A program made the translations under genes and the position numbers. The notes beneath the pieces were generated by a model, which did no database searches, was not told where the DNA came from, and saw only the letters and a list, made by a program, of their open reading frames with translations. This document shows, piece after piece, positions 29,963 through 34,746 of a stretch of 64,000 nucleotides of DNA (position 1 is its first letter; each line of letters begins with the position of its first letter). Source of the stretch: Synechococcus sp. KORDI-49 (GTDB taxonomy: Bacteria; Cyanobacteriota; Cyanobacteriia; PCC-6307; Cyanobiaceae); contig NZ_CP006270.1 in assembly GCF_000737575.1 (NCBI RefSeq), forward strand, positions 437,163-501,162, given 5' to 3'.

Positions 29963-30529
29963 GTGCGGGCCCTGGCCACATGGAGCGGCGCCCTCGCCGG
30001 TCTGCTGCTGATCCTGATCGGCAGCCTGCTGCCGGCAGCCCTGTTGGTGCCGTTGCCGTTGTCAGTGGTGGAGCTGCCGGCGACCTGGCAGGTCCCGGCC
30101 CTGCTGCTCTGCGCACTGGTCTGTGGTCCCAGGGCCGGGGTGATCGCTGCCGTCGCTTATCTGAGCATCGGCCTCACTGATCTGCCCGTGTTCCAGAGCG
30201 GTGGCGGAATCACTTATGTGCTCGAGCCCGGGTTCGGCTATCTGGCCGGATTCATTCCGGCCGCCTGGCTCACAGGACGGCTGTCCCAGCAGAACGAGAT
30301 GGGGGATCTGACCGCGCAAACCGGCTCCGCCATCGCGGGGCTGATGGTTCTGCAGCTCTGCGGACTTCTGAACCTTGGCCTTGGTGCTCTGTTGAGCCGC
30401 TGGAGCGTCTCCCTGCCCCAGCTGATCGTTCAGTACTCGCTGGGTCCCCTGCCGGCGCAGCTCCTGCTGTGCTGCGGAGTGGGCCTGATCGCCGTCGTGC
30501 TGCGCCGTCTGCTGATGGTGCCGGGATGA
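29963..30529 (+). CDS. bioY: BioY family biotin transporter (ECF S component)
   Basis: BioY binds biotin in the membrane and works alone or with a shared ECF module. The 188-aa protein has about six hydrophobic helices and the BioY-type sequence LPVFQSGGGITYVLEPGFGY followed by LAGFIPAAWLTG, which marks the biotin site. It starts at GTG 29963 (no closer ATG fits the first helix). It overlaps lspA by 4 nt and heads a rightward coupled run. Confidence 0.9.
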   Translation: MRALATWSGALAGLLLILIGSLLPAALLVPLPLSVVELPATWQVPALLLCALVCGPRAGVIAAVAYLSIGLTDLPVFQSGGGITYVLEPGFGYLAGFIPAAWLTGRLSQQNEMGDLTAQTGSAIAGLMVLQLCGLLNLGLGALLSRWSVSLPQLIVQYSLGPLPAQLLLCCGVGLIAVVLRRLLMVPG

Positions 30530-31005
30530 ACCATCGCGTGCTGGGACGGAGTGGCGTGATTCTGATCGCCGTCGCCGTTGTGCTCTGTGATCAGCTGAGC
30601 AAGGCCTGGATCACGGCCCTGCTGAGCGATGGCCGCTCGATCAAGGTTGTTCCCGGTCTGCTGGATCTGCGCCTGGTGCACAACACCGGAGCAGCGTTCA
30701 GCCTGCTGCGGGGAGCGACACCGCTGCTTGCACTGCTGAGTCTGGTGGTGGTCATCGCCGTTCTGATTTGGCTCTGGCGACAGCAGAGGCTTCCGATCTG
30801 GCAGGGGCTGGCTGTCGGCTTCCTGCTGGGGGGCAGTCTCGGCAATGGACTGGACCGCTGGCGGCTCGGCTATGTGGTCGATTTTCTGGCCCTTGTTCCG
30901 ATCGACTTCCCGATCTTCAATCCGGCTGATGTCGCCATCAATCTCGCCGTGATCTGCTTCGCTGTGGACCTCTGGTCGAACCGCAGCGGGATTCGCCGTG
31001 GCTGA
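30526..31005 (+). CDS. lspA: Lipoprotein signal peptidase (signal peptidase II)
   Basis: LspA cleaves the signal peptide of prolipoproteins after lipid attachment. The 159-aa protein has four membrane helices and the conserved motifs CDQLSKAW (21-28), VHNTGAAFS (51-59), GNGLDRWRLGYVVDF (106-120) and FNPADVAIN (131-139). The catalytic aspartates should be D119 and D135. I start at the ATG at 30526, which overlaps the bioY stop (ATGA). It overlaps the next gene by 8 nt. Confidence 0.96.
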   Translation: MNHRVLGRSGVILIAVAVVLCDQLSKAWITALLSDGRSIKVVPGLLDLRLVHNTGAAFSLLRGATPLLALLSLVVVIAVLIWLWRQQRLPIWQGLAVGFLLGGSLGNGLDRWRLGYVVDFLALVPIDFPIFNPADVAINLAVICFAVDLWSNRSGIRRG

Positions 31006-33148
31006 ACGCATTGCTGAATCCGGAGTGCCCAGCCTGGTTGTTCACCAGCTGGATCAGCCGGACCGAAGCATCCCCCTGCATGGAGACGGCTATCGACTCG
31101 GGCGGGAGGACAGTCTCGAGGTTCCGCTCAATCATCCGGCCATCAGCCGCCTGCATGCTCTGCTGCAACGTCGTGGACGGCACTGGCTGCTGATCGATCA
31201 GGACTCCACCAACGGGATCTGGTGGAAGGGCCGCCGTGTCAGAGAACTGGAACTGCGTGACGGTGACCGGATTGCCCTGGCACCCGCTTCCGAGGCGGGA
31301 TCACCGACTCTTCGCTTCATCAACCCGCGTGAACACAACGGTCGGCGTCTTGCCTGGCTGACCGGGGCCCTGGTGGTGGCGGGACTCAGCACCACCGGCG
31401 CCTTGCTGCTTCTCGCCAATCTCAGTGTCCCGGTCCGCGGGAGGTTGGCCACGGTTCAGGGTCCGATCGCCATCTACGACCGGAACAACCAGCCGATCCG
31501 TTCTGCTGATTCCCAGCGCCACCGTGAACTCGGCAGCATCCAGGAATTTTCTCCATCCATCGTCGATGCTCTGCTGGCCAGCGAGGACAACCGCTTCTGG
31601 TGGCATCCCGGCATCGATGCCATCGGCACCCTGCGGGCACTGACGACCAATGTCGTTGGTGGCGAGGTGCTTGAAGGGGGCAGCAGTCTCACCCAGCAGC
31701 TGGCCCGCAGCCTGTATCCCGACCAGGTCGGGCAGGGCGACACGATCGAACGCAAATGGAGGGAGCTGCTGGTGGCTCTGCAGCTGGAGAGCCGCTTCAG
31801 CAAGGCAGAGCTGCTGCTGAGCTATCTGAACAGGGTGTATCTCGGTGTCGGCTTCGGATTCGAGGACGCCGCCCGGGCCTACTTCAACACCTCGGCCAGC
31901 AAGCTCAACCTGGAGCAGGCGGCCCTGCTGGTGGGCCTGCTGCCGTCTCCGAACGGACACGATCCCTGCCGTTACCCCCAGCGGGCACTGGAGGCCCGCA
32001 ATCTGGTGCTCAACAAGATGGCCGATGAGGGGCGCTTGTCCCTGGAAGCCGCCCGCGAAGCCCGTCGTCGACCGATCCAGCTGTCGCCGAAGGCCTGCAG
32101 CCAGGTCAATGCCGGTACAGCACCCTTCTACAGCGACCAGGTGCGCCGAGATCTCACTGCCCTGGTGGGACCGGAGGTGGCAGCGGAAGGGAATTTTCTG
32201 ATCGAGACCCATCTCGACCCTGTGCTCCAGTCCGTGGTGGTCCGACAGCTGCAAAATCTGCTCGAGAGCAGCGCCGGCCTTGGCGTCGGGCAGGGGGCAG
32301 CGGTGGTGCTTGACAGCCGCAACGGTGGTGTTCTCGCCATCGCCGGTGGCCGTGACTATCGATTCAGCCAGTTCAACCGGGCCACGATGGCGCTGAGGCA
32401 GCCCGGCAGCACCTTCAAGCTGATGACCTACCTCGCGGCGCTGGAGCGCGGCATTAGCCCGGGAACCAAGCTGAACTGCGAGGGGCTGGAGTGGGGAGGT
32501 CAAACCTTTGAGAGCACCTGCAAGGGGGAACTGACGCTGCTGAGCGCCTTTGCGTTCAGCAACAACACCGCAGCCCTGCGACTGTCCCGTCGGATCGGAT
32601 TGGAGCAGGTCGTGCGTCAGGCCAGGGCTCTCGGGATCACCACACCGCTCGACCCCGTACCGGGTCTTGCCCTCGGTCAGAGCGAAGTCCGACTGATCGA
32701 ACTCACCAGTGCCTATGCCGCGGTGGCCAACGACGGACTGTGGCATCCACCGACCACCATCCGCAGGCTTGTGGACGCGGAGACCTGCACAGCCGAGCAG
32801 GCCAGGTCCTGCCGCAGTCTCACAGCCACCGGCAGCGGAAGTCTCAACGCCGAGCGTCGGGCCGTCCGGCCCGAGACTGCCAAGCGGATGCAGACGCTGC
32901 TGCAGGCGGTGGTGCGCAACGGCACCGGTCGAGGGGCCTATCTCGGCGGCAAGGAGGGAGGCAAGACGGGCACCACGAACGACGGTCGTGATCTGCTGTT
33001 CATCGGCTACGAACCCTCGCGTCACTGGGTGCTCGGCATCTGGCTGGGCAACGACGACAACAGTCCGACCGCCAGCTCCAGCGCCCTTGCCGCGGTCCTC
33101 TGGGGCGACATCATCCGGGCAGCGGGTCGCGGCAGCGTCACGCAATGA
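30998..33148 (+). CDS. FHA domain-containing class A penicillin-binding protein (PBP1A type)
   Basis: A bifunctional glycosyltransferase/transpeptidase with a cytoplasmic phosphothreonine-binding FHA domain in front. FHA residues are complete: G35-R36, S50-R51-x-H53 and N72-G73. One membrane helix follows (about 118-141). The GT51 domain has the catalytic E196 in SEDNRFWWH, GGSSLTQQLAR (227-237) and the RKWRELLVALQLE helix. The transpeptidase domain has S471-T-F-K474, S521-N-N523 and K656-T-G-T659, so both activities look intact. The start is GTG at 30998, 8 nt inside lspA; its stop overlaps the GTPase gene as ATGA. Confidence 0.94.
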   Translation: MAERIAESGVPSLVVHQLDQPDRSIPLHGDGYRLGREDSLEVPLNHPAISRLHALLQRRGRHWLLIDQDSTNGIWWKGRRVRELELRDGDRIALAPASEAGSPTLRFINPREHNGRRLAWLTGALVVAGLSTTGALLLLANLSVPVRGRLATVQGPIAIYDRNNQPIRSADSQRHRELGSIQEFSPSIVDALLASEDNRFWWHPGIDAIGTLRALTTNVVGGEVLEGGSSLTQQLARSLYPDQVGQGDTIERKWRELLVALQLESRFSKAELLLSYLNRVYLGVGFGFEDAARAYFNTSASKLNLEQAALLVGLLPSPNGHDPCRYPQRALEARNLVLNKMADEGRLSLEAAREARRRPIQLSPKACSQVNAGTAPFYSDQVRRDLTALVGPEVAAEGNFLIETHLDPVLQSVVVRQLQNLLESSAGLGVGQGAAVVLDSRNGGVLAIAGGRDYRFSQFNRATMALRQPGSTFKLMTYLAALERGISPGTKLNCEGLEWGGQTFESTCKGELTLLSAFAFSNNTAALRLSRRIGLEQVVRQARALGITTPLDPVPGLALGQSEVRLIELTSAYAAVANDGLWHPPTTIRRLVDAETCTAEQARSCRSLTATGSGSLNAERRAVRPETAKRMQTLLQAVVRNGTGRGAYLGGKEGGKTGTTNDGRDLLFIGYEPSRHWVLGIWLGNDDNSPTASSSALAAVLWGDIIRAAGRGSVTQ

Positions 33149-34746
33149 TTCCGCCGCGCAGCCGGTTGCTGATCGGCCTTGCTGCCGGGCTCCTGGCCCT
33201 TGTGGTGATTGGAGCCATCCTCCAGGCGGTCCGCAGCCTGCTCTGGGATCTCAGCTATCTGCTGCCGGGCTGGTTGCTCACTCCGGTGCTATTGCTGGCC
33301 GTCGGCCTGATCCTCGCTCTCGGGATCCAGATCGGCTGGCCATGGTGGCAGAGCTGGCAGCGACGGAAGCGGCGGCCGGATCAGACCACGGAACCGCAGA
33401 TTCAGGTTCCGAGCGATCGGCGCGAGGCCGCGACCCGAAGTCTGGACAGCATCGACCGCGTGCTGGAACAGCTTCAGGACGACATCACCCGCGAGGGACT
33501 GCGACGGGAGCGGCAGCGGGTCGCGGAGGATCTGACGCGCGGCGACCTCGTGGTGGCCGTGTTCGGCAGCGGCTCAAGCGGGAAGACCTCTCTGATCCGT
33601 GCACTGCTTCAGGAGATGGTGGGGGAGGTCGCCGCGGCGATGGGCTCCACCCAGCACAGCCGCACCTATCGCCTGAAACTGCGGGGCTTGCAGCGTGGCC
33701 TGCAGCTGGTGGACACCCCCGGCATCCTCGAGGCCGGGGACGCCGGGTATACCCGTGAGGAAACGGCACGGAGGGTGGCCGTGCGTTCCGATCTGCTCCT
33801 TGTGGTGGTGGATGGAGATCTGAGGGCCTCCGAGTTCGGCGTTCTGCAGTCGATCGCCGACCTTGGAAAGCGTCTGCTGCTGGTGCTGAACAAGCGTGAT
33901 CTGCGAGGTGTTGAAGAGGAGCGACGGTTGCTGGAGGTGCTGCGTCACCGCTGCAGAGGGCTGGTGGAGGAGCTGGATGTGATCGCCTGCAGTGCCTCAC
34001 CCCAGTCGATTCCCAGACCGGGGGGCCAGCCGCTGCAACCGGCACCGGATGTGGTGGAGCTGCTGCAGCGGCTCGCAGCCGTGCTCCACGCTGATGGCGA
34101 GGAACTGATCGCCGACAACATCCTTCTGCAGTGCCGCAGGCTGGATGAGCAGGGTCGGCAGCTGCTGAACCGCCAGCGACGACGGGAGGCTCAGCGCTGC
34201 GTGGACCGCTACAGCTGGATCAGTGGCGGGGTCGTGGCAGCCACGCCGCTGCCCGGCGTTGACCTGCTTGGAACGGCTGCCGTGAATGCCCAGATGGTGA
34301 TGGAGATGGCCGGCGTCTATGGAGTCGAACTCTCCAGAGATCGGGCTCGTGAGCTGGCGCTGTCCGTGGGACGGACGCTGGCGACCCTGGGACTGGTCAA
34401 GGGAGCGATGAGCCTGATCGGTACCGCTCTCAGCCTCAGTCTGCCGACCCTGCTGGCCGGACGGGCGATCCAGGGCGTGGCTGCGGCCTGGCTGACCCGC
34501 ATCGCCGGGTTCAGCTTCATCCGCTATTTCGAGCAGGACCAGGACTGGGGGGACGGAGGTGTTCAGGATGCCGTGCGGCAGGCCTTTGAACTGAACCGTC
34601 GCGATGCCTCTCTCAGGAGCTTTGTTGAGATGGCCGTGCGGCAGGTGGTGGAACCGTTGCAGCGCCGCCCAGATCGGAAGCTCCCACCCCGGCCAGAGCC
34701 TCGGGAGGAGGGGGGAGCATCGGACCGCGGGCGTCCAGGACCGTGA
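33145..34746 (+). CDS. Membrane-anchored GTPase with C-terminal DUF697 domain
   Basis: The 533-aa protein begins with two membrane helices (about 8-28 and 41-61), then a coiled linker, then an Era/YcjX-like GTP-binding domain: G1 FGSGSSGKTS (140-149), G3 DTPG (190-193), G4 NKRD (249-252). The C-terminal part (about 350-470) matches DUF697, a membrane-associated helical domain found in chloroplast and cyanobacterial GTPases. It is translationally coupled to the FHA-PBP gene by ATGA. The role is unknown; context suggests envelope or division. Its last 134 nt overlap a convergent small gene. Confidence 0.88.
   Translation: MIPPRSRLLIGLAAGLLALVVIGAILQAVRSLLWDLSYLLPGWLLTPVLLLAVGLILALGIQIGWPWWQSWQRRKRRPDQTTEPQIQVPSDRREAATRSLDSIDRVLEQLQDDITREGLRRERQRVAEDLTRGDLVVAVFGSGSSGKTSLIRALLQEMVGEVAAAMGSTQHSRTYRLKLRGLQRGLQLVDTPGILEAGDAGYTREETARRVAVRSDLLLVVVDGDLRASEFGVLQSIADLGKRLLLVLNKRDLRGVEEERRLLEVLRHRCRGLVEELDVIACSASPQSIPRPGGQPLQPAPDVVELLQRLAAVLHADGEELIADNILLQCRRLDEQGRQLLNRQRRREAQRCVDRYSWISGGVVAATPLPGVDLLGTAAVNAQMVMEMAGVYGVELSRDRARELALSVGRTLATLGLVKGAMSLIGTALSLSLPTLLAGRAIQGVAAAWLTRIAGFSFIRYFEQDQDWGDGGVQDAVRQAFELNRRDASLRSFVEMAVRQVVEPLQRRPDRKLPPRPEPREEGGASDRGRPGP

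Follow-up and report, generated by a model that had tools for sequence, protein, structure and literature searches.

How cyanobacteria tie the growth of their wall to signals is, to our knowledge, little understood, and the locus analyzed here raises the question in concrete form: which partner might control a class A penicillin-binding protein (PBP) that carries an FHA domain and is encoded directly ahead of a GTPase? The window, that is, the whole stretch of 64,000 nt that was analyzed, belongs to Synechococcus sp. KORDI-49 (G000:C1:437163-501162), whose genome of 2.59 Mb forms a single contig. As read in the sequence, bioY and lspA overlap by ATGA at 30526, lspA and the PBP gene by 8 nt (GTGGCTGA), and the PBP stop and the start of the DUF697 GTPase by ATGA at 33145-33148 (Table 1). 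The gene coupling contained in the original prediction was therefore confirmed at each junction. It had also been proposed that wall synthesis may respond to Thr phosphorylation and that the GTPase may be a dedicated partner of the synthase. Comparison of sequences across genomes indicates that this was most likely the right kind of signal and the wrong partner, and that a membrane kinase is likely the partner.

Table 1. Features of the FHA-PBP locus, in window positions
Feature	Position	Strand	Basis
bioY, first gene of the overlapping run	29963..30529	+	PF02632, E 1.1e-27
lspA (signal peptidase II), overlapping bioY and the PBP	30526..31005	+	PF01252, E 4.8e-37; TIGR00077 above cut-off
FHA-fused class A PBP, 716 aa, GTG start	30998..33148	+	Pfam, alignment, AlphaFold2
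FHA domain, residues 32-94	31091..31279	+	PF00498, E 1.8e-15; pocket alignment
Single long helix at the FHA-catalytic junction, residues 110-143	31325..31426	+	AlphaFold2; putative membrane span
Glycosyltransferase 51 domain, residues 164-341	31487..32020	+	Transgly, PF00912
Transpeptidase domain, residues 433-684	32294..33049	+	Transpeptidase, PF00905
slr1306-like GTPase with DUF697, 533 aa	33145..34746	+	Pfam, NCBIfam

The fused protein possesses what is expected both of a class A PBP, namely glycosyltransferase 51 and transpeptidase domains with their active-site motifs, and of an FHA reader, namely an FHA domain with a conserved pocket of Arg, Ser, His, and Asn. In an alignment of 117 FHA-PBP rows, where a few genes are represented twice, the catalytic Glu of EDxRF and the Ser and Lys of RQPGSTFK are identical throughout, and the KTG motif is retained with Lys in 116 rows and Thr and Gly in all 117, so that both catalytic sites are intact as predicted. 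Within the FHA domain, G35, R36, S50, H53, T71, N72, and G73 are identical in 116 of the 117 rows, the remaining row being gapped there. The pocket that had been described as intact thus stands with respect to R36, S50, H53, and N72 and fails at R51, which is Arg in just 63/117. The AlphaFold2 model (mean pLDDT 80.7) displays a beta domain at approximately 12-108, the long helix, which would serve as a membrane span, and then the catalytic modules. Because the FHA domain is placed ahead of this single long helix, it is presumably cytoplasmic. Among solved FHA domains, Rv1747 provides the closest in sequence (E 2e-8). Of the named relatives, Synechococcus WH7803 (CT971583.1) and WH5701 and several Cyanobium possess an FHA-PBP.

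The distribution of the PBP points to a kinase. In an FHA search of 26 chosen genomes, the PBP was the sole FHA protein found in the window genome, and 0/15 genus mates lacking the FHA-PBP gave an FHA match. Among 260 genomes of the family, an FHA-PBP (either of two paralogues) and a protein over the PF00069 cut-off are both present in 124 and both absent from 132; the PBP occurs without the kinase in one genome (G313, a fragmentary assembly) and the kinase without an FHA-PBP in three (G135, G221, and G258). A genome-wide correlation between FHA domains and Ser/Thr kinases in bacteria is already known, as cited in PMC2176072. Beyond that general correlation, the specific feature here is that one kinase is paired with one PBP.

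In the window genome, the sole protein over the PF00069 cut-off has 711 aa and is encoded outside the window at G000:C1:1740691-1742826, some 1.27 Mb from the FHA-PBP. It comprises a kinase domain (approximately 30-280), a juxtamembrane linker, a helix at 349-372 that is taken as a membrane span, and an extracytoplasmic domain (approximately 397-640). A search with this kinase itself recovered homologues in 144 of the 260 family genomes, of which 22 lack this FHA-PBP and 122 were counted as having it, the latter comprising the 121 genomes in which this PBP occurs and, in addition, G470, whose fragmented assembly yielded the second FHA-PBP paralogue alone. Kinase rows were read for all 22 PBP-less genomes and for 85 of the 122 PBP-bearing ones. 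PF00069, the motifs, and AlphaFold2 agree on a kinase fold with an HxD catalytic loop with its Asn and a DFG motif, and the best Foldseek match of the model is a PknA entry. Asp161 and Asn166 are retained in 83/83 readable PBP-positive rows and the Asp and Gly of DFG in 84/84, with Phe replaced in five of these 84. In place of the beta-3 (VAIK) Lys, all 83 readable PBP-positive rows carry Arg, a substitution given in the accessible part of PMC12599244 as a common pseudokinase mark. The protein is accordingly called kinase-like, with its activity uncertain. PASTA repeats gave no match at E 0.01, which places it outside the PASTA kinases PknB/StkP, and by analogy it may work like them. A search of the window genome with PP2C_2, the one phosphatase family used, gave no cognate phosphatase over the cut-off.

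As far as the available text of PMC2176072 goes, the Ser/Thr kinases (STKs) of marine Synechococcus and Prochlorococcus cluster with SpkE (Slr1443), their nearest named relative, and deviate from the canonical motifs; reports on the activity of SpkE conflict in the part of the literature covered. The label “SpkE-like” is adopted from that account together with the deviant motifs. The same portion of PMC2176072, in its account of SpkE and the picocyanobacterial STKs, mentions no FHA-PBP partner, juxtamembrane motif, or co-decay.

A candidate docking site lies in the linker of this kinase. T299, in the context RADR-T-VVL, is present in all 84 readable PBP-positive rows, and of 33 Thr in the protein it alone is invariant (83/83 readable rows, G470 left out). 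It sits in a conserved island at approximately 286-304 of an otherwise variable linker, where mean conservation is 0.83 (286-303) as against 0.38 (306-345). At 299-328 the pLDDT of the AlphaFold2 model falls below 50, as would be typical of disorder. Some FHA ligands carry an aliphatic residue at +3.

On these grounds we consider it rather probable that the FHA-PBP acts as the reader in a small circuit based on phosphothreonine, in which the kinase-like protein is the writer or scaffold and docking takes place between pT299 and the FHA domain. T299 in the linker of the sole Hanks-type kinase over the Pfam cut-off would become phosphorylated (R-A-D-R-pT-V-V-L), the cytoplasmic FHA domain of the PBP would dock onto it, and docking would recruit or gate the wall synthase according to the signal perceived by the extracytoplasmic domain, with a putative effect on the activity or the place of the synthase. 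The proposal resembles the mycobacterial pair of PknB and FhaA (Rv0020c), as described in the accessible part of PMC12077195, where the phosphorylated juxtamembrane region of a membrane Hanks kinase binds an FHA protein of division and shape. It differs in that the FHA domain is here fused to a wall synthase and that the kinase lacks a PASTA match and bears Arg at the beta-3 Lys. If true, this would be a minimal circuit of one writer and one reader, the phospho-reader being the peptidoglycan synthase itself, and a role would be suggested for the deviant kinases of marine picocyanobacteria. With T299 and pocket residue R36 named and natural lineages of loss to draw on, a phospho-controlled class A PBP becomes directly testable in non-pathogenic strains.

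A second reading, suggested by the Arg at beta-3, makes the kinase-like protein a pseudokinase scaffold that receives its phosphate from a different enzyme and on which the PBP docks as FhaA does on MviN in mycobacteria. In that system, according to the part of PMC12599244 at hand, FhaA is recruited by the tail of MviN once PknB has phosphorylated it, and the likeness extends to a kinase-like domain with a Thr-bearing tail and to recruitment of an FHA protein to wall synthesis. However, the reader of MviN is a separate inhibitory protein, and here no readable PBP-positive row has lost the catalytic Asp, the Asn, or the DFG Asp, which would be odd for a dead scaffold. The window genome also holds no other protein over the PF00069 cut-off to perform the phosphorylation. 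A scaffold of this kind is therefore regarded as unlikely.

The fate of the kinase in lineages without the PBP bears further on the proposed circuit. With PF00069 alone, PBP-less mates would be described as devoid of the kinase. This description was rejected, since the search with the kinase itself shows that most of them keep the gene with its kinase half decayed. Asn166 is found in only one of the 22 PBP-less kinases (G221), five having no residue there. The DFG Phe is found in three (G135, G221, and G258), its position being otherwise occupied by Gly in nine and Leu in one, with nothing aligned in nine. T299 is retained in two (G135 and G221), while no residue is aligned in 19 and G258 carries Pro. 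Since 20 of the 22 retain a match to the extracytoplasmic domain, what was lost is the signalling half. T299 belongs to a cytoplasmic module that was lost whole, so its disappearance is not independent evidence of docking. One further PBP-less genome, G431, has no kinase homologue at E 1e-6. The exceptions should be noted: G221, sister to the PBP-bearing G411, retains the kinase motifs and T299 without the PBP, G135 retains T299 and DFG, and G258 retains DFG. Three of the 22 genomes (G175, G331, and G342 of genus g9) have lost this PBP and kept the second FHA-PBP paralogue, which adjoins a kinase of its own in the two for which coordinates are available. Asn, DFG, and linker are gone from their kinase regardless. 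The second reader thus does not preserve this kinase, and the link is specific to the first.

The dependence between the two losses was examined on a GTPase tree of 64 rows (62 chosen family genomes and two outgroups), on which PBP and kinase each require seven changes. Five independent pairs lie on supported branches; four agree and one does not differ, giving a sign test p of 0.125. A loss-only likelihood model, written for this analysis and rooted with both traits present, supports dependence of kinase decay on PBP absence over the 62 tips with a likelihood ratio (LR) of 34.5 and p ~4e-9, a p-value that is rough, as are the others, because rates reach their bounds and the tree is built from a single gene. 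The LR is 27.7 with g6 coded as kept, 24.9 after removal of the streamlined clade and three single genomes, 17.1 with both changes combined, and 7.9 (p 0.005) within the window genus alone. The reverse dependence fits nearly equally (LR 30.4), and the order of loss is therefore not settled by the model.

Streamlining could be the driver of both losses, in which case the FHA-PBP and the cytoplasmic half of the kinase would have been removed independently, with no functional link. Both are indeed absent from small-genome clades, and the independent contrasts are few. Against this, within the window genus, G411, of approximately 2.2 Mb, retains both, while G199 and G400, of 2.6 Mb, are PBP-less with a decayed kinase. 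Moreover, the dependence persists without the streamlined clade, and the loss is domain-specific. Independent removal is accordingly held to be quite improbable, and the coupling of FHA-PBP and kinase, as traced in their sequences, is well supported. A predicted link between wall synthesis and Thr phosphorylation is supported in substance by the invariant FHA pocket, by the PBP being the sole FHA protein found in the genome, and by co-occurrence and co-decay with the kinase.

For the adjacent GTPase, which contains MMR_HSR1 (residues 137-250) and DUF697 (328-486, E 8e-56) domains in Pfam, the picture is different. Its best NCBIfam match is NF049994, the slr1306 family of DUF697 GTPases, at 261.9 bits against a cut-off of 490, so that this family is the nearest only. 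In a draw of 291 genomes across the phylum, 114 contain the PBP at E 1e-100 or better and 141 the GTPase at E 1e-20 or better, although twelve of the latter, all of genus g2, have a match only 33-36% identical that may be a paralogue, for which reason the GTPase is not claimed to be universal. Conservation of the adjacency was followed in the 103 genomes outside the family that have both genes, 52 of them with both on one contig: the two lie within 500 bp in none and within 1.4 kb in two, and they are thus unlinked in most cyanobacteria. Inside the family, the gap is at most 410 bp in all 112 genomes with coordinates compared, a count that omits nine of the 121 with this PBP; this adjacency is not chance. 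Of the 260 family genomes, 182 have the GTPase at E 1e-120 or better, and at least 61 of these lack this PBP; in the window genus the GTPase is present in 19/19 genomes, the PBP in 4/19. Five PBP-less genomes that were examined (G221, G195, G283, G135, and G175) retain bioY, lspA, and the GTPase with gene order unchanged. Co-expression of PBP and GTPase is likely, since the operon is conserved in the family wherever the PBP is present, and from this distribution the GTPase is probably a co-expressed neighbour that has a separate function. That it is a dedicated regulator of the FHA-PBP, as originally proposed, is very improbable in view of its separation outside the family and its retention without the PBP, even with the constant adjacency inside the family and the overlap of stop and start in the window. 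Neither is lspA an obligate neighbour, because it falls in the 1.5 kb flank of the PBP at only 8/20 loci outside the family. The pair around the FHA-PBP is undescribed in the titles and abstract openings of the literature on FHA and penicillin-binding proteins, FHA and TerY, DUF697 and cyanobacteria, and slr1306.

The history of the PBP in the window genus was considered separately. Horizontal gain is unsupported, both by the PBP tree (25 rows), in which the window genus is split off whole by one branch, as is g5, and by the operon kept minus the PBP; vertical descent with loss is consistent with these sequences. A further class A PBP is encoded in the window genome at G000:C1:2422009-2423775. 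It is 37% identical, the match spanning residues 110-706, behind the FHA domain, and its presence may be what allows the FHA-PBP to be lost.

Outside the family, the pattern T..[VIL][AGS][PRG] occurs in 16 of 30 linkers, compared with 1.74 +/- 1.23 in shuffles (loci L356-L385). Each of the 30 linkers stands for a different genome, its locus being drawn from the best kinase matches of 65 genomes. Because the pattern was devised with the linkers already in view and the loci are putative orthologues at best, it is treated as a lead only. The related TxxV/I/L motif in the linkers of many other cyanobacterial kinases would point to an ancestral wall-control system. That the FHA-PBP is a phospho-reader docking the juxtamembrane pThr of a Hanks-type envelope sensor, and that such a system is ancestral in cyanobacteria, is a tentative proposal for which our confidence falls slightly short of even.

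Several observations were made at other loci. In PBP-less genus mates (L132-L143), the extracytoplasmic domain of the kinase is mostly kept after decay of the kinase half, and it therefore probably has a kinase-independent role. The second FHA-class A PBP (approximately 43% identical) is encoded divergently beside a Hanks kinase and a VWA protein at L098:6492-12634 (G215), L097, and L101, with a PP2C phosphatase in L097 and L098 and a separate small FHA protein in L098 (Pfam). This locus, which we take to resemble a TerY-P triad, links an FHA-PBP directly with a kinase and a phosphatase. Finally, in G135, which has no FHA-PBP, locus L100:3347-5704 encodes an ABC transporter that resembles Rv1747 in having two FHA domains; a Hanks kinase and a PP2C phosphatase lie close by, with a gene that appears VWA-like by eye between them.
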